Source of the DNA: Psychromonas sp. L1A2
GTDB lineage: Bacteria; Pseudomonadota; Gammaproteobacteria; Enterobacterales; Psychromonadaceae
Reading direction: 5' to 3'
NCBI RefSeq assembly: GCF_009828855.1
Contig: NZ_WUAG01000002.1
Coordinates: 496,001 to 560,000, forward strand
Length of the DNA stretch: 64,000 nucleotides
The position numbers were made by a program, and so were the translations under genes. Numbering within the stretch: position 1 is the first letter of the stretch; each line of letters begins with the position of its first letter. The notes beneath the pieces are model-generated. The model saw only the letters and a list, made by a program, of their open reading frames with translations. It did no database searches and was not told where the DNA came from. Shown here one piece after another: positions 8,810 through 49,174 of this stretch.

Positions 8810-9919
8810 TTATTTAATACTGTCAGAGCTCTCTAGTAAGTTTCTATGGTCATCCTTGTCCATGTGCAATTGACGGGTAGGGAAGGCGAACTCTGCTCCA
8901 TGCTCAATCACTATATTGGCTACTTTTAATAAAACATCTTGCTTCACTTCATGAAACAAAATCCAGTTAGTTGTTTTAGTGAAAGTATAGATAAAAAAGT
9001 CTAAAGATGAATTATTAAATAAATCAAAGTTAACAATCAAAGTCTGAGACTGATCGATATCAGGATGATTTTGTAACATCTCTCTAACCGCTTTTATAAT
9101 ATGCTCGACTTGTTGAATATCTTTATAACGCAGGCCAAAGTCTTCTTTAATACGTCGATTAGTCATACGAGATGGATTCTCTACAACAATGGTTGTAAAT
9201 AAACTGTTTGGGACGTAAATAGGACGTTTATCAAAAGTACGAATACGTGTTACACGCCAGCCAATTTCCTCTACGGTCCCTTCGATTGACTTGTCAGGAC
9301 TACGGATCCAATCACCTACTTTAAAAGGTTTATCCATATACACCATGGTTGCACCAAATAGATTTGATAATAAATCCTTAGCCGCCATACCAACAATTAA
9401 CCCCCCCATACCACCGAATGCAAGCACACCAGAAATACTTACCCCTAAGGTTTGAATAATTGATAAAGTAATAATAGTAATAATGGAAAGCTTCGCTAGT
9501 TTAGATAATGCAGTAACTGTCGTTGTATCTTTTGCATCATCGGCAATATAAGTATGTTCTGCTTTATAAACTAAGCGCCAAAATACCCAACCAATCAAAA
9601 ATAAAATAGCCACTTTTTGAACCGCTGGTAAATAATCAGAAATGGCAAACTCTTCACTTTCTGCGATCACTCTCATTGACATTGATGTCCCCATCAAGAC
9701 AATCACCCAATTGATCGGTTTATTAACGGCATAGAACACAATATCGTCCCAACTATTTAACGTTTTGGCGATCATATTCTCAGCTCTTCTTGCAAAATAA
9801 CGCCAAACTAATTGCAATAAAAGAGTGATGCATAACATTAGAGCGAAGTTAGCAACCCAATTTCCAATATTTATTGTAAGTAGCCAATCACTTACATAAA
9901 CTTCAGCTTGTTCAAACAT
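8810..9919 (-). CDS. MscS-family mechanosensitive channel (YnaI-like)
   Basis: A membrane channel of the MscS superfamily, expected to open under membrane tension and release solutes after a drop in external salt. The 369-aa protein has about five hydrophobic segments (near 20-40, 65-85, 105-125, 145-165 and 170-190), a pore region with [20 protein letters not shown], then the beta-domain PFKVGDWI and a cytoplasmic vestibule part. The extra N-terminal helices relative to canonical MscS suggest a YnaI/YbdG-type channel. The start is ATG with AAGGA upstream. It lies downstream of canonical mscS on the same strand but 620 bp away, so it probably has its own promoter. Confidence 0.88.
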
Positions 9920-10540: not shown

Positions 10541-11404
10541 TTATTTACGATGCACATCCATTTGTGGATAAGGTATTTTAATGTTTTCACTATCTAGCGC
10601 ATTTTTAATGCTTTCAGTTAGCGCAAATCGTACAGACCAATAATCACCTGATTTGACCCAAGGTCGAACTACAAGGTTCACGCTTGAGGTTGCCAACTCA
10701 GACACAGCGATTTGTGTGCCAGGTTCAGTTAACACTTTATCATTCGCTGATACTGCAGCCTCTAAAACGTCTTTAACATGTTTCAAATCAGATTGATAAC
10801 TAACACGTATAATAAGGTCAATACGACGTATAGGCTTACGAGAAACATTAACAATATTACCTTTTAAAATCGCAGCATTGGGCACAACGATATGCTTATT
10901 ATCACCGGTTCTTAATATGCAATGAAATAACTGAATTGATTCAACCGTTCCAGCAGTACCTGCAGCTTCAATAAAGTTCCCTATTCTAAAAGGGCGTAAG
11001 GTCACTAATAAAATACCAGCGGCAAAATTAGATAAGGCTCCTTTTAGGGCCAAACCGACCGCAAGTCCTGCTGCAGCCAGAATCGCCACAAATGAAGCAG
11101 TTTGAATGCCTAGATGCCCTCCTCCCGCAATAAGGGTCATTGCAATCAGCGTATAACGCGCAATCGCAGCCAAGAAGTCTACGATCGTTTTATCTACTTT
11201 CTTTTTAGTTAATATGCGCGATAAAAGGTGAGAGAGTGTTCGCGCAATATATAAACCAATAATAATGATTAATATTGCAACAACAAAATTCACGATATAA
11301 CTTAATATCAACTCATTATGTTCACGGCCCCAATGAATAAGTTGCTGAAGAAAGTGAGTATTTTCTACTGAAGTACTTGTTAATTCTGTATTTTCTAAAG
11401 ACAT
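10541..11404 (-). CDS. mscS: Small-conductance mechanosensitive channel MscS
   Basis: Canonical MscS, 287 aa, close to the E. coli length of 286. It forms a heptameric inner-membrane pore gated by tension and protects against hypo-osmotic shock. There are three N-terminal TM helices (about 30-55, 70-90 and 95-125); TM3 shows the Gly/Ala-packed pore sequence AAAGLAVGLALKGALSNFAAG, followed by LRPFRIGNFIEAAGTAGTVE and the beta and C-terminal vestibule domains ending PYPQMDVHRK. Match to the family is over the full length. Start is ATG. It is the clearest of the four MscS-family genes in the window. Confidence 0.96.
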   Translation of the reverse strand: MSLENTELTSTSVENTHFLQQLIHWGREHNELILSYIVNFVVAILIIIIGLYIARTLSHLLSRILTKKKVDKTIVDFLAAIARYTLIAMTLIAGGGHLGIQTASFVAILAAAGLAVGLALKGALSNFAAGILLVTLRPFRIGNFIEAAGTAGTVESIQLFHCILRTGDNKHIVVPNAAILKGNIVNVSRKPIRRIDLIIRVSYQSDLKHVKDVLEAAVSANDKVLTEPGTQIAVSELATSSVNLVVRPWVKSGDYWSVRFALTESIKNALDSENIKIPYPQMDVHRK

Positions 11405-21494: not shown

Positions 21495-21776
<282 letters not shown>

Positions 21777-22813: not shown

Positions 22814-24766
22814 CTACTGAATACCTTGTAATAACAACGATAAGTTAGGCTGTTTAAAGCAATTTTGTAAGTGTTCTACTGATAATTTAATTAATGATTC
22901 CAAAACTATTTCTATTTCAGATATCGATAATATTTTGCTTGGCTCGTTTTCTGCCAATAAATGGCTCAACTGATCGCATAATAATTTAATCTGAGACTCA
23001 TCATTCTCGATAGTTTCAAAGCTCATCGCATCTAAGCTACCTGACTTAATACCAAGGTATTCAAATACTTTAGGTAGAATAGTTGCAATTGGTGCATGCC
23101 TAAAAGCGGCAGGGACTTGGCTAACAATCACAAATTGAGATTGAAACTTATAAGTGAAGCCTAGTCGATTTAATATTGTAGTCGTCTGCTGTGCGATATC
23201 TAACATATCAGACTCTAATTTAAAACGAACAGGCAACAGTAAAGGCTGTGAAATTACTTCTCCATCTTGCCATGCTGTATACAAATGTTCAGAAACTAAC
23301 GCTTTGTTAGCTAAAGTTAATGACACTAATAACAAACCATTGTTAGAAAGCTTGCACCAAGCCGGATAGATAGGTTGCATTAATAGGTGCTCAGCATCAA
23401 TAATACTAATCACATTAGCAGCTTTATGTTGACTACTTTTACTTCCAAAGGATTGTACTGAAGGAGCAATATTTTGCTGGTATGCTTCAGCGACAAAATC
23501 ACAATAAGCACCAACTTGCTGATGATCTAACTGAGGGCGAGCAGCGGGCGCTGAGTAATTACTCTGCCCATAATTATTTCCTCTATTCCTTTCTTGCGAG
23601 CCTCCATAATTATCAGTGTTATTACCACTAATATTGCTATCGTTATCATGATGGCTTGAATCTTGAGACTCATAATTGAGATTAGTTGGCGGCTGATAAG
23701 CATGTTCTGAAACACGTTGATTATCCGTACTTTGTGTATTATTTTCTTCTAACTCATGCCCTAATAGAGAACTATCACTTAGCGTTGCATTTAGTGTGCT
23801 GCTGATAAAATCATGCACCCATCGAGCTTGGTGAAACCTAACTTCATGCTTAGCAGGATGTACGTTTACATCGACCTCTTTAGCATCACATTCAATATAA
23901 ATGATATAACCAGGAAACATGCCTTGCGGTAAGAAATGCGCATAAACCTGCCTAATCGCATGATTAACTAATTTATCGCGAATCATTCGGCCATTAATAT
24001 AACAATATTGAACATCAGCTAACGGCCTAGGGGATAATCGATCAGATACCCAACCTGAAATCTTTAATGCTTGATCCGCTGTTTCAAAAAATACAGCATG
24101 CTGCATAAACTGTTCACTACAGATTGCCGCAATTCTCTTTTCTTGTTGAGCTTGTTCTGGCGCAGCACGATACTGTCTGATGACTTTATTATTATGCTTT
24201 AAGGTGATTGCAATATCGAAACGACTCAATGCAATACGTTTAATTAATTCATCAATATGCTGAAATTCAGTTTTCTCTGTTTTTAAAAAACGGCGGCGTG
24301 CTGGTGTATTAAAAAACAAATCCAATACTTCAACCGTCGTTCCTTGAGGATGAGCTGCAGGTTGAATGCTTACTTGCATATCACGCCCTTCAGCAATAGC
24401 TTGCCATGCTTGCTCTTGGCCGACAGGTTTTGAAGTAAAAGTTAAACGAGAAACAGAGCTAACACTGGCTAATGCTTCTCCTCTAAAGCCTAAGCTTACA
24501 ATCGCTTCGAGATCATCAAGATGACTTATTTTACTCGTCGCATGACGACTTAAAGCAAGTGTTAATTGCTCTTTATCGACACCGTTACCATTATCCTTAA
24601 TGCGTATGCATTTAGCACCGCCCTGCTCAATCTCAATATCAATACGAGTTGCGCCCGCATCTAAACTATTTTCAACTAATTCTTTAACCACTGAAGCAGG
24701 TCTTTCAACCACTTCACCAGCCGCTATTTGATTAGCTAATCGTGCAGGTAATATCTGAATAGGCAT
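22814..24766 (-). CDS. mutL: DNA mismatch repair protein MutL
   Basis: GHKL ATPase that links MutS to downstream repair. 650 aa. The N-terminal ATPase shows [15 protein letters not shown] and [10 protein letters not shown], with the transducer domain to about 330. A linker rich in Asn, Ser, Gly and His (about 345-410) is followed by the dimerisation domain. The DQHA(x)2E(x)4E endonuclease motif of other MutL proteins is not visible, consistent with the MutH-dependent type of gammaproteobacteria. It lies between amiB (18 bp) and miaA (1 bp), in one operon. Confidence 0.96.
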
Positions 24767-24784: not shown

Positions 24785-27643
24785 CTAACTAACAGGAATG
24801 GTTAACACTTGACCAATAGCCAATGATTTTGAACGCAACTTATTCGTCGATATAATAGCGCTTGTTGTGGTGCCATAACGTTTAGCGATCACAGACAAAG
24901 ATTCACCACTTCGCACTTTATGTTTCTTTCTTACAAAGTTTGTCGACGGTATTTTTAACTTTTGTCCCACTTTTAACGAGTTAGATCGCAAGTTATTAAA
25001 CTGTTTAAGTTGTTGTGTTGTTATGTTGTACTTATTAGCGATCACAGATAACGATTGTCCGCTACTCACTGTATGTGAGGCAGGACGAGTTGGCACAATA
25101 TAATTTGAACTTGGGATTTTTAATGTCTGCCCCACAAGTAAGCGCGAAGAGCTCAGGTTGTTATACGCTTGAAACTGTTTAGCAGTACGACCATATCGTT
25201 TGGCAATAACAGACAGAGACTCGCCACTTTTAACTTTATGGTGAGTAGGTTCAGGTGCTTTAACTGCCTTTTTAACTGTACTAACATTTACACTGCTTTC
25301 GCCAGGTATTTTAATCTTTTGACCAACGTATAAAGACGTCTTTTTCAACTTATTATAGGCAATCAAATCCGCTGTGCTTTGATTATACTCTCGAGCAATC
25401 AAAGATAACGCTTCTCCAGATTTCACTGTATGTACTATCGGTTTTTTAACTACTTTTTTAACAACTTTAGGAGATACCGAAGACTGAACTTTTCCTCCCG
25501 GAATGTTAATCTTTTGACCAACGTATAAAGTGGTCTTTTTTAAGTTGTTATAAGCCACTAAGTCAGCAGTACTTTGATTATACTCTCGAGCAATCAAAGA
25601 TAACGCTTCTCCTCGTTTTACCGTATGCACGATTGGTTTTTGAACGACTCTTTCAACTACCTTCGGTTCAGATAAAATAGGAGTAGATTGAGCAACTCCA
25701 CCCGGTATTTTAATTTTTTGACCAACGTATAAACTAGTCTTTTTTAAGTTGTTATAGGCCACTAAATCAGCTGTACTTTGATTATATTGTCTTGCAATCA
25801 AAGACAATGCTTCACCGGACTTTACTGTATGCACGATTGGTTTTTGAACAACTTTTTCAACTACCTTTGGTTCAGATGAAATAGTAGTAGATTGGGTAAC
25901 TCTACCCGGTATTTTAATTTTTTGACCAACGTATAAACTAGTCTTTTTTAAGTTGTTATAGGCCACTAAATCAGCTGTACTTTGATTATATTGTCGTGCA
26001 ATTAAAGACAATGCTTCACCAGGTTTTACAATATGCGTTTGTTCTTTTTGAACAGCCTGTTGTACTAGTGAAGAGACTTCATTATTACCAGGGATCTTAA
26101 TTTTTTGACCAACAAGTAGAGACGTTTTTTGTAATTTATTATGAGCAACTAAACCCGCGATCGATTGATTATATTTATTCGCAATAATAGATAATGATTC
26201 ACCACGTTTTACAGTATGTGTCGTTGCTTGTTGAATTGTTGTAGCAGCCTGCTGTGAACTTGCTTCAGGCTTCTCCTCAATAACATGATAATTCTCAGGA
26301 ATACTTAATACTTGCCCAATACGCAAAGAGCTCGATTTTAAATGATTAAAATCTTTCAGCTTAGCACTACTAACACTATAACGTCTTGATAGGACTGAAA
26401 GCGATTCGCCGCTTCGAACGGTATGTTTAATAGCACGTTTTTTCTGTGCAAATAAACTGCCTTGTGGAGGTTTCTCACTAAAATGTGTGTAGATACCTTT
26501 GAAAACGGCATTAGCAATTTTGTTTTGAAATTCAGCTTGATTTAATAAACGCTCTTCAGTGCGATTGGTAATAAAGCCAGCCTCCACTAAAATTGATGGA
26601 ATGTCTGGAGATTTCAATACAGCTAAACTGGCATGCACAGGTTCTTTCTTATGCATCGTTGTAACTTTAGACAGTTCATTTGTTACTAAACTACCGATGT
26701 TAAAACCAACGCCCATGGTGTTACCCATGGACATGTCTAATAACATTTTATTTAAGAATGGCACACTATCCGAGTCTTGAATTAAATCGCCAGCCCCACC
26801 TAATAGCTCTGATTGCGCTTCATTCCTTTCCATCCAGCGTCCTAACTCAGTAGTCGCTCTTCGGTTAGACAATACCCAAACAGATGCTCCTTTAGGTCGA
26901 CTTGAGGTAAACCCATCAGCATGAATAGACACTAAGAAATCAGCTTTACCTTTACGAGCAATCTCAGAACGTTTATTCAAATTAACAAAGTAATCACCGG
27001 TTCTAATTAAAAAAGCCTGCATGCCTCTTTGAGCATCAATAACATTCTTTAAACGTTTGGCAATTTCTAATGTTACTTTTTTTTCATAACTGTATTTACC
27101 TAAAGCGCCTGGATCATCACCACCATGACCAGCATCGATAGCAACAATAATATTACGGCCATTAGGCGTCGCAGAAATTTGGTTAGGTACCTTTGTTGCA
27201 ATCGTTGGTAAATCGATCACTAGGCGGTGACCATAAGGTTTTGCAGGTGGTAAGCTGAATATCTTAGCTTTACTGACTTCTTTTAAATCAATAACTAACC
27301 GAAATGTGTTTGCTTTAGACGTTTTACTTTCTCTTATATTACTTATTAATTTACCTTTGTTTTTAATCGTTTTTAAATTAGCTTTATTGATTGTTCCAGT
27401 AAGATCTATCACTAAACGATCAGGGTTAGTAAGGTAATGGGTCTGATATTGAGGTTTATTGCTGAGATCAAACACAACACGAGTATTATCTGGAGAAGGC
27501 CATGTACGAACGCCTTTTAATTCAGTTTGTGCGGCAGAAACGCTTAAACTGATACTTTGAATCATCAGTAAGCTGCACAAAAAAAGCACTCTAGCATGGG
27601 ATAATCGCTTTAATAATATCGTGAAAGTTTGCTTTATCATCAT
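24785..27643 (-). CDS. amiB: N-acetylmuramoyl-L-alanine amidase AmiB with nine LysM modules
   Basis: Periplasmic zinc amidase that removes stem peptides from murein to split daughter cells, normally activated by EnvC-type LytM factors. 952 aa, about twice the E. coli length. Order: signal peptide (to about 38), AMIN domain (40-140), Amidase_3 domain (about 165-390; VAIDAGHGGDDPGA, SIHADGF, LVEAGFITN) containing the insert that carries the blocking helix, then nine LysM murein-binding modules starting near 405, 474, 538, 605, 673, 738, 801, 856 and 906. Modules 3-6 are almost identical. The ATG overlaps the tsaE stop (ATGA). The amidase part is canonical; the LysM number is unusual. Confidence 0.95.
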   Translation of the reverse strand: MMIKQTFTILLKRLSHARVLFLCSLLMIQSISLSVSAAQTELKGVRTWPSPDNTRVVFDLSNKPQYQTHYLTNPDRLVIDLTGTINKANLKTIKNKGKLISNIRESKTSKANTFRLVIDLKEVSKAKIFSLPPAKPYGHRLVIDLPTIATKVPNQISATPNGRNIIVAIDAGHGGDDPGALGKYSYEKKVTLEIAKRLKNVIDAQRGMQAFLIRTGDYFVNLNKRSEIARKGKADFLVSIHADGFTSSRPKGASVWVLSNRRATTELGRWMERNEAQSELLGGAGDLIQDSDSVPFLNKMLLDMSMGNTMGVGFNIGSLVTNELSKVTTMHKKEPVHASLAVLKSPDIPSILVEAGFITNRTEERLLNQAEFQNKIANAVFKGIYTHFSEKPPQGSLFAQKKRAIKHTVRSGESLSVLSRRYSVSSAKLKDFNHLKSSSLRIGQVLSIPENYHVIEEKPEASSQQAATTIQQATTHTVKRGESLSIIANKYNQSIAGLVAHNKLQKTSLLVGQKIKIPGNNEVSSLVQQAVQKEQTHIVKPGEALSLIARQYNQSTADLVAYNNLKKTSLYVGQKIKIPGRVTQSTTISSEPKVVEKVVQKPIVHTVKSGEALSLIARQYNQSTADLVAYNNLKKTSLYVGQKIKIPGGVAQSTPILSEPKVVERVVQKPIVHTVKRGEALSLIAREYNQSTADLVAYNNLKKTTLYVGQKINIPGGKVQSSVSPKVVKKVVKKPIVHTVKSGEALSLIAREYNQSTADLIAYNKLKKTSLYVGQKIKIPGESSVNVSTVKKAVKAPEPTHHKVKSGESLSVIAKRYGRTAKQFQAYNNLSSSRLLVGQTLKIPSSNYIVPTRPASHTVSSGQSLSVIANKYNITTQQLKQFNNLRSNSLKVGQKLKIPSTNFVRKKHKVRSGESLSVIAKRYGTTTSAIISTNKLRSKSLAIGQVLTIPVS
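25315..26035 (-). repeat. Tandem DNA repeats inside amiB (LysM units 3-6)
   Basis: Four units of about 195-204 bp with the shared word GACCAACGTATAAA beginning at 25321, 25516, 25720 and 25924. The units are nearly identical over the LysM part; linkers differ slightly in length. A diverged fifth unit begins near 26107. The pattern indicates recent duplication by unequal recombination. Confidence 0.9.
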
Positions 27644-28098
27644 AAGTTATTTAATACTCTTAAACCATTTTCGGTATTTGCTTGTAAGGTAATTTCTCGT
27701 TGTTCGCCAACATAAACAAGCGTTAAATCAATATCCGCGTTAGGTAAAAAACCTACACCACGTTCTGGCCATTCAACTAAAGAATGGCTCGTTTCACCAA
27801 AATAATCACGGATCCCCATAAATTCTAATTCTTCAGGATCTGATAAACGATATAAATCAAAGTGGTACACTTGCCAATCAGCTAACTCATAGGGTTCAAC
27901 TAAAGTATAAGTTGGGCTTTTTACATTGCCCACATGGCCTAAACCTTGAATAAACCCTCGCGTCAATGTCGTTTTCCCTGCACCTAAATCGCCGTGTAAA
28001 TAAATACAAGTTGCAAGCTCACAGGCTTGACTTAAGCGTTGACCAAACAGAACTGTTTGCTCTGCATTCTCTAATTTTTCTTTTAATATATTCGACAT
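27640..28098 (-). CDS. tsaE: TsaE, ATPase for tRNA t6A biosynthesis
   Basis: P-loop ATPase that regulates the TsaB-TsaD complex in making threonylcarbamoyl-adenosine at tRNA position 37. 152 aa with Walker A HGDLGAGKTTLTRG, KSPTYTLVEPY and LVEWPERG, all typical. It is the first gene of the amiB-mutL-miaA-hfq operon and overlaps amiB by four bases. In E. coli nnr precedes it; here it is directly divergent from queG with no nnr gene. TsaD is encoded about 2 kb away. Confidence 0.95.
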   Translation of the reverse strand: MSNILKEKLENAEQTVLFGQRLSQACELATCIYLHGDLGAGKTTLTRGFIQGLGHVGNVKSPTYTLVEPYELADWQVYHFDLYRLSDPEELEFMGIRDYFGETSHSLVEWPERGVGFLPNADIDLTLVYVGEQREITLQANTENGLRVLNNL

Positions 28099-46594: not shown

Positions 46595-47614
46595 TCAATT
46601 ACTTAAAATATTTTCTCCTTCTTCAGGGTCTCGAGCTTTAGCAGCTTGTTCTCTTATATCTTGATGGTCACTACTAATATCATCATCGCTATAGTCTTCG
46701 AATTTGTTAGTCGTTTTACCGGAAGCATTGTTAGGTAGCGGTTCTTTCTGTTGTTTAGAAGGTCTATTTTCTTCTACACTTTGTGACAAAATAATTCGCT
46801 CTCTCGCATCATCTGGCATCGTAACCTTTTCTTCCAGAAAAACCTCAACTACTTTTTTCATCAAAACCGATGAGATTTTTAACTGACTGTTAATTTCACT
46901 GTTAATCCAAAAATAAAGTCGTAAATTACAAGTTGATGATCCCAATGAGTTAACCAATACTTGAGGAGCAGGTTCTTCCAATATCGCAGGATGTTGCTTC
47001 ATAATATTTTCAACTAAAGACTGAGCATAATCAAAATCAGTATCGTAACCAATACCAATATCAAAAGAGGCTCTTATGTTTGGATTTGCAGTAAGATTAC
47101 GTATCGCATTTTTATAAATTGTCGCGTTAGGCAATTGGATATGATCGCCATTAAAATCAACCAACGTAGTTGCGCGAGAGGTCATTTTCTTGACCACACC
47201 TAAATATCCGGCTACTTCAATAATATCGCCTAGTTTAAAAGGACGTTGAATACTTAATAATAAACTTGATAGAAAATTTTCAGCAATATCTTTAAACGCA
47301 AAGCCAACAATTAACCCTAATACACCAGTACCACTTAATAAAGCAACAGCAAATTGTGTCAGTCCAACAAGCCGTAATAATATGTATAGGCCTAACAGAA
47401 CGATCAATAGGCTCATGGTTCTACGAATCACTAATTGTATTAATCGATTATTCGTCGTTTTAGTTAATGGTTTAGTGAGCAAATTAGCAATAGGTTTTGA
47501 TAACCAAAAAAAAGTGACAAAAATAACTAAACCAATAAATATTGAAGGTAATTTATCTAATACTACTTGAGAAAACTGAACTAAATCATCTATGACCATT
47601 TGAATTTTCATCAT
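46595..47614 (-). CDS. MscS-family channel with long acidic tail
   Basis: 339 aa. Three TM helices (about 22-42, 65-85 and 90-112), pore helix GVLGLIVGFAFKDIAENFLS, beta-domain entry RPFKLGDIIEVAGYLG and the vestibule domain to about 265. It then continues with a hydrophilic, Asp/Glu/Lys-rich tail of about 75 residues (SYSDDDISSDHQDIREQ-like) absent from canonical MscS. Start ATG, poor ribosome-binding site. Divergent from a second MscS-family gene across a 618-bp spacer. Confidence 0.9.
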   Translation of the reverse strand: MMKIQMVIDDLVQFSQVVLDKLPSIFIGLVIFVTFFWLSKPIANLLTKPLTKTTNNRLIQLVIRRTMSLLIVLLGLYILLRLVGLTQFAVALLSGTGVLGLIVGFAFKDIAENFLSSLLLSIQRPFKLGDIIEVAGYLGVVKKMTSRATTLVDFNGDHIQLPNATIYKNAIRNLTANPNIRASFDIGIGYDTDFDYAQSLVENIMKQHPAILEEPAPQVLVNSLGSSTCNLRLYFWINSEINSQLKISSVLMKKVVEVFLEEKVTMPDDARERIILSQSVEENRPSKQQKEPLPNNASGKTTNKFEDYSDDDISSDHQDIREQAAKARDPEEGENILSN

Positions 47615-48232: not shown

Positions 48233-49174
48233 ATGGAATTATTAAAAGTTGAAAAGTTCTGGAGTTTAATCTACGAAAAATTAGAGTCATGGCTTGAAGC
48301 AACAATTAAAATTTTACCTAATATTGTTGTGGCTATATTAATCGCAATCTTCTTTTCAATTCTTGCCCGTTACGCAGGTAAGATAATGAATAATTTTTTA
48401 CGTAGAACTAAAGTATCCCCTCAAATAGCGAATTTGTTGTCATCTATATTCAAAGTAGGTGTACTGGTTGCTGGTATTTTTATTGCATTAGACTTCCTAG
48501 GGTTAAGTGGTACCGTCACCTTTTTATTGGCAGGTGCTGGTATCGTTGGCTTAGCCATCGGTTTTGCATTTCAAGACATGACAGAGAATCTCATTGCCGG
48601 CATCGCAATGGGTATCCGTAAGCCATTCCAAATTGGTGACATTATCGAAACGGATAAAGTATTTGGTGAAGTTAAAACAATTAATTTAAGAAATACGTTA
48701 GTTGAAACTTTTTCAGGACAATTAGAAATAATTCCAAATAAAATATTATTTAGAAATATATTAACCAATTACTCTACAAAAGGAATAAGACGCATAGAAG
48801 TTCCTTTTGGTATTTCTTATGCAGACGATCCAGACAAAGCAACCAAGATCATTGTTGAACATATAAATCAGTACAAGTTCGTCATTAAAAAACAAGAAAC
48901 TGCAGTGTACGCAACAGACTTTGGAGATAGCAGCGTTAATTTATTATTATGGTTTTGGATAGATTACCCTGGTAAAACAGGTTTTATGCAAGCCAAACAT
49001 GAAGCCATTATAGGTGTGAAAAAATCCCTTGAAAAGGCAGATATTCTAATCCCTTTCCCTATTCGAACACTGGACTTTGGTGCAAAAGGAGGAGAAAAAT
49101 TAAATAACATGTTGAACGCTACTGAGGACCATAATAATGATAGTGTTGCAGAGAGTAAACGACCTGATGAGTAA
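48233..49174 (+). CDS. MscS-family mechanosensitive channel
   Basis: 313 aa. An N-terminal amphipathic part, TM helices (about 28-48, 65-85 and 92-115), pore helix GAGIVGLAIGFAFQDMTEN, then RKPFQIGDIIETDKVFGEV and the cytoplasmic domain; the C-terminus is polar. AGGAA lies before the ATG. The pore sequence differs from that of the divergent 46595-47614 gene, so the two are not recent duplicates. Converges on the DUF2254 gene. Confidence 0.92.
   Translation: MELLKVEKFWSLIYEKLESWLEATIKILPNIVVAILIAIFFSILARYAGKIMNNFLRRTKVSPQIANLLSSIFKVGVLVAGIFIALDFLGLSGTVTFLLAGAGIVGLAIGFAFQDMTENLIAGIAMGIRKPFQIGDIIETDKVFGEVKTINLRNTLVETFSGQLEIIPNKILFRNILTNYSTKGIRRIEVPFGISYADDPDKATKIIVEHINQYKFVIKKQETAVYATDFGDSSVNLLLWFWIDYPGKTGFMQAKHEAIIGVKKSLEKADILIPFPIRTLDFGAKGGEKLNNMLNATEDHNNDSVAESKRPDE

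Follow-up and report, generated by a model that had tools for sequence, protein, structure and literature searches.

An AmiB-type amidase of Psychromonas with a genus-wide array of eight to ten LysM modules, a candidate multivalent peptidoglycan anchor

As described in the sections of the published reports drawn on here, Vibrio cholerae encodes only AmiB, which is activated by EnvC and NlpD (PMC6638016), and E. coli has three such amidases (PMC12440217). In AtlA of Enterococcus faecalis, according to the part of the source cited, wall binding rises with the number of LysM modules, which behave as beads on a string, and peptide-bearing glycan is bound less well than bare glycan (PMC4083421). 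Septal targeting of AtlA requires its six LysM modules, for which six foreign ones are no substitute (sections of PMC10113225), so LysM number alone may not be decisive. A literature search with most subscription journals outside its range returned nothing about the AmiB of Psychromonas or about its LysM tail, and a term search of the P. ingrahamii genome paper (PMC2405808) gave neither 'amidase' nor 'LysM'.

The window analysed here is a stretch of 64,000 nucleotides from Psychromonas sp. L1A2. A preliminary description had placed an AmiB of 952 aa with nine C-terminal LysM modules at 24785-27643, and both coordinates and count were borne out by the ORF call and by Pfam, which delimits nine separate LysM stretches (PF01476; family score 389 bits, E 2.8e-119). 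The PF11741 and PF01520 domains are both over their cut-offs and stand in the order AMIN then Amidase_3 (Table 1). A six-frame search of the L1A2 genome also identified nine places over the LysM cut-off in the 953-codon frame, and the protein probably starts with an export signal. The gene order at the locus is tsaE-amiB-mutL-miaA-hfq (hfq being read from sequence only), which we take to be the amiB neighbourhood of E. coli. Elsewhere, four different MscS-type mechanosensitive channel genes lie inside 41 kb, at 8810-9919 (-), 10541-11404 (-), 46595-47614 (-) and 48233-49174 (+).

Table 1 Features of the amiB-type gene and its neighbours, in positions of the window
Feature	Position	Strand	Basis
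amiB-type gene, 952 aa	24785..27643	(-)	ORF call with ATG start; Pfam AMIN, Amidase_3, nine LysM
AMIN domain, residues 45-145	27209..27511	(-)	Pfam PF11741, E 5e-16
Amidase_3 catalytic domain, residues 167-384	26492..27145	(-)	Pfam PF01520; phmmer to 8c0j, 4bin, 8c2o
LysM 1, residues 407-450, fixed first module	26294..26425	(-)	Module mapping and between-species comparison
LysM 2-8 and linkers including the last linker, residues 476-907	24923..26218	(-)	Inner modules turn over
LysM 9, residues 908-951, fixed last module	24791..24922	(-)	Module mapping and between-species comparison
tsaE, directly upstream, 4-base overlap with amiB	27640..28098	(-)	PF02367; TIGR00150 over cut-off
mutL, directly downstream of amiB	22814..24766	(-)	
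miaA	21877..22812	(-)	TIGR00174 over cut-off
hfq-like 75-aa ORF	21495..21722	(-)	Name from its sequence alone

The best NCBIfam model for the protein is AmiB (NF007751), ahead of AmiC and AmiA, at 300.3 bits against a cut-off of 532; because this score is below the cut-off we label the protein AmiB-type and not a certified equivalog. Using phmmer it aligns with the solved amidases 8c0j, 4bin (AmiC) and 8c2o (AmiA) through the inserted segment, which covers approximately residues 258-330 of the protein, within the Amidase_3 domain, and is alignable to 8c0j and 4bin. Four residues in a region alignable to the solved amidases, H173, E187, H241 and E354, are invariant in five Psychromonas proteins and are presumably the metal ligands and the catalytic glutamate. 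A genome search covering the Amidase_3 class, with other amidase families such as Amidase_2 outside it, gave a single match in L1A2.

The nine LysM modules start at residues 407, 476, 537, 605, 673, 738, 802, 857 and 908, separated by linkers of 7-25 aa, and form a strongly basic tail (pI 10.3). In the DNA the inner array corresponds to a 204-bp tandem unit (3.6 copies, 84 % match), and the repeat families are spaced by approximately 150-204 bp. Two groove segments, located by alignment with chain 2mkx and with the contact residues given in part of PMC4083421, carry the motifs G-[EQ]-[SA]-L-S and L-x-[IV]-G-Q, which are kept in 9/9 modules. An AlphaFold run on five close sequences had a mean pLDDT of 53.6, its catalytic domain being of no use and its tail usable. 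Each LysM is predicted as a strand-helix-helix-strand block with pLDDT mostly 60-80, while the six longer linkers fall below 40. The model supports a tail shaped as beads on a string, whose length we estimate from assumed sizes at approximately 22 nm with the beads touching and 76 nm with the linkers stretched. An assembly artefact was rejected as the source of the array; the L1A2 assembly consists of two contigs, and G006, G011 and G022, each assembled as a single contig, have 8, 9 and 9 modules.

A genome search identified four M23 proteins in L1A2. One of these has EnvC as its top-scoring NCBIfam model (268.2 bits against a cut-off of 270) and another, which has one LysM, scores best to NCBIfam NlpD (260.6 bits, cut-off 311). 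The EnvC-like gene is directly followed by a gene for a PF04748 divergent polysaccharide deacetylase (L064, 634-1473 and 1474-2748). Sections of PMC12440217 describe the E. coli PF04748 protein YibQ/SddA, whose gene accompanies that of EnvC, as a deacetylase of amidase-stripped glycan. Such deacetylation could loosen the grip of LysM. Of the 14 LysM found in the genome, nine belong to the AmiB-type protein and three to a single 545-aa frame, while the NlpD-like protein and a 376-aa frame have one each. As nine of the 14 sit in AmiB the LysM expansion is specific to it, and a general inflation of LysM in this genome was rejected on the same count.

Psychromonas sp. SP041 and others are among the relatives, whose best tblastn segments reach at most 86 %. 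Our genus sample consisted of the L1A2 genome and a further 23 searched, 24 in all, and an intact gene was present in 19, which include L1A2 itself and three genomes that are 51-85 % complete. All 19 intact genes hold 8-10 LysM, with eight in seven genomes (G004, G005, G006, G007, G014, G015, G019), nine in nine (G000, G003, G008, G009, G010, G011, G012, G020, G022) and ten in three (G001, G013, G023). The tail is on these counts a trait of the genus Psychromonas and not of one strain, and a peculiarity of a single strain was rejected. The preliminary description had named, as what would refute its proposal, nine modules shared by all close relatives as an ordinary lineage trait; this largely applies, the tail being common to 19/19 intact genes, although the number is 8-10 and not exactly nine. 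Five genomes (G002, G016, G017, G021 and G018) were left out of the count statistics. In the first four of these (4/24 genus genomes) contig ends interrupt the gene inside its array, leaving 4+6, 4+4, 3+5 and 3+6 whole or partial modules respectively, with overlap possible. We did not find amiB in G018, where mutL continues past the start of its contig, and because mutL abuts the contig end the absence of amiB from G018 does not follow. These five broken or unassembled genes could conceal longer arrays. Such arrays can break assemblies, and amiB may look truncated or absent in annotations.

Outside the genus we counted modules in 28 genomes, comprising the seven nearest, 17 of the order (mostly those with the longest frames) and four of a class survey, and each holds 0-4 LysM, consistent with the earlier statement that other AmiB proteins have none to a few. 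The seven nearest have one LysM each and share 51-59 % identity over residues 1-396. Among the 17 genomes of the order, in which five frames run off the examined stretch on the N-terminal side, four LysM are present in two f11 and four f19 genomes and three in two f21 genomes, while the remainder have two (four genomes), one (four) or none (one). Two other families of the order therefore have four-LysM AmiB-type proteins, f19 (L069-L072) and f11 (L065, L066), and Psittacicella hinzii (L035, L036) also belongs here. The four long frames of the class survey hold 1, 1, 1 and 3 LysM. The longest non-genus frame in the order is 734 aa, among the 283 of 370 genomes drawn that have listed best-match frames (127 rows, 77 of 78 and 79 of 80), the best match in some families being a short amidase and not AmiB. 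In the class survey, with amidase matches in 248 of 369 genomes, no frame other than that of L1A2 exceeds 797 aa among the matches listed. This 797-aa frame (G460) has one LysM, with 687 of its 797 aa read, and was rejected as a long-array rival. Also rejected were G169 and G237, whose listed lengths of 716 and 700 aa each include an internal stop and which give 553 and 540 aa and two LysM, and G043, listed at 1282 aa, which reads 580 aa with three LysM. An array of 8-10 modules is, on these counts, unusual beside AmiB-type proteins elsewhere.

In a tree of the catalytic region with six outgroups, the 19 proteins of the genus fall into a single clade (100/100). To identify the nearest neighbours of individual modules we compared them against other species with less than 85 % catalytic identity. 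First modules are nearest to the first modules of other species in 19/19 cases and last modules to last modules in 19/19. Inner modules behave otherwise: of 110, 59 lie closest to a module of their own array and 42 to one of another species, with 9 equidistant; for the 19 penultimate modules the corresponding numbers are 3, 15 and 1. This pattern shows end modules that are fixed across the 19 species and inner ones that turn over, partly homogenised within species. G022 (L008) has seven consecutive inner modules that are identical in protein and on average 94 % identical in DNA. Its array is a case of strong within-gene homogenisation. In L1A2, modules 3 and 4 are 95 % identical with a pS of 0.18 (pS and pN are uncorrected values throughout), as against 0.53-0.59 with their counterparts in the two nearest relatives, and being closer to each other than to those counterparts they indicate at least one recent copying event. 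Modules 3-6 of L1A2 show pS 0.18-0.64 and pN 0.02-0.07 among themselves, and the L1A2 modules show pS 0.39-0.67 and pN 0.00-0.10 against their best counterparts in the two relatives. The mostly synonymous differences point to purifying selection on the modules. No module of the array stands out as the ancestral one: the single LysM modules of seven outgroups are variously similar to first, inner or last modules, none of these being clearly favoured.

We favour, with a probability of roughly 0.7, the reading that this is an AmiB-type septal enzyme, the only Amidase_3 amidase found in the genome, in which the genus-wide array of 8-10 LysM would anchor the enzyme, in other respects an ordinary septal amidase, to peptidoglycan in a multivalent way. 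AmiB would be exported and kept off by the inserted segment until opened by EnvC or NlpD, and once activated would remove stem peptides from the glycan of the septum. Its LysM beads would attach to GlcNAc on neighbouring glycan strands, their avidity being additive or cooperative, and this multivalent grip would keep the enzyme on the wall, at the septum, we infer, rather than over the whole sacculus. Higher murein affinity from the tail is plausible by analogy with AtlA. Since the LysM modules of AtlA bind stripped glycan better than peptide-bearing glycan, the tail may also hold the enzyme on its own product, stripped glycan. Against this reading count the nearest families, which manage with one LysM, the scores below cut-off to the AmiB, EnvC and NlpD models, and the failure of six foreign modules to replace those of AtlA.

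The counts of 8, 9 and 10 need at least nine changes on the catalytic-domain tree. We simulated random walks with eight rates pooled, a root at nine and unit steps, using the runs with at least nine inferred changes, for which few low-rate runs qualified; a range this narrow arose in 8 of 11,219 and a variance this small in 0 of 11,219. The observed range of 8-10 is tighter than an unconstrained random walk would give, which speaks for stabilising selection on the number of modules, or for a mutational bias toward that number, rather than for free drift. Two cautions apply: gene conversion can homogenise without altering number, and longer arrays could be concealed in the five genomes whose gene is broken or missing. 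On the alternative view the number has no functional meaning: LysM would have been duplicated in the ancestor of the genus, with modules since added and removed by unequal exchange. Such neutral repeat drift is consistent with the tandem 204-bp unit, with the 59 of 110 inner modules whose closest counterpart, among the species compared, lies in their own array, with the seven inner modules of G022 identical in protein and 94 % in DNA, and with what the five incomplete genomes could hide. It does not readily explain why the modules differ mainly at synonymous sites or why 8-10 were kept through at least nine changes when the simulations so seldom stayed in that range and never had so small a variance, and we regard it as improbable. 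A more specific proposal is that the number is held at 9 +/- 1 by stabilising selection amid continual inner replacement and represents a selected avidity setting, the tail gripping the enzyme's stripped glycan and so tying cutting to sites already cut. We offer this tentatively, as a possible but doubtful refinement of the anchor.

A structural role for the tail could also take the form of a ruler or tether by which the amidase, once activated, would span the periplasm to get to glycan, as the narrow module number, the flexible linkers, the basic character (pI 10.3) and an estimated extended length of up to approximately 76 nm might suggest. The preliminary description had suggested that the tail could span a wider periplasm, for which its estimated length would suffice. 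A ruler is hardly compatible with linkers whose length (7-25 aa here) and sequence differ along the array and among the five species compared; in addition the LysM beads should bind the wall along their length, which leaves this role very unlikely. The LysM array could also have a targeting role that works via a protein partner, ahead of export or in its course. AtlA of Enterococcus faecalis, a multi-LysM septum-cleaving enzyme, is a published precedent (sections of PMC10113225), although the AtlA system belongs to a monoderm and is dependent on the partner protein AdmA, and to this we give the least credence of all. Multivalent anchoring to peptidoglycan remains our preferred reading.

The protein is a variant of known AMIN-Amidase_3-LysM amidases, of which the fixed ends, the replaceable middle and the narrow count, all absent from the preliminary description, are the most interesting aspects. 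Psychromonas provides a natural series of 8-, 9- and 10-module septal amidases beside nearest families with one module, and as this series exists the tuning of a division hydrolase by LysM number is testable with real orthologues in a Gram-negative cell.

The Psychromonas protein resembles E. coli AmiB and AmiC in its catalytic domain with an inserted segment (alignment with 4bin, AmiC) and in having AmiB as its best NCBIfam model, but it scores below the NCBIfam AmiB cut-off. To our knowledge the E. coli amidases are without LysM. A single AmiB-type amidase accompanied by candidates for both activators recalls Vibrio cholerae, the EnvC- and NlpD-like proteins here being below their NCBIfam cut-offs, whereas two f21 frames (580 and 601 aa), from genomes that we take to be Vibrio-like, hold three LysM, the V. 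cholerae protein itself lying outside the comparison. AtlA of Enterococcus faecalis is likewise septum-cleaving with a C-terminal LysM array, its linkers being of 16-23 residues (part of PMC4083421), but is a glucosaminidase of a monoderm with six modules and an unrelated catalytic domain. The AMIN-Amidase_3-LysM amidases of the nearest families have the same domains as the Psychromonas protein, but in each of the seven genomes with one LysM only.
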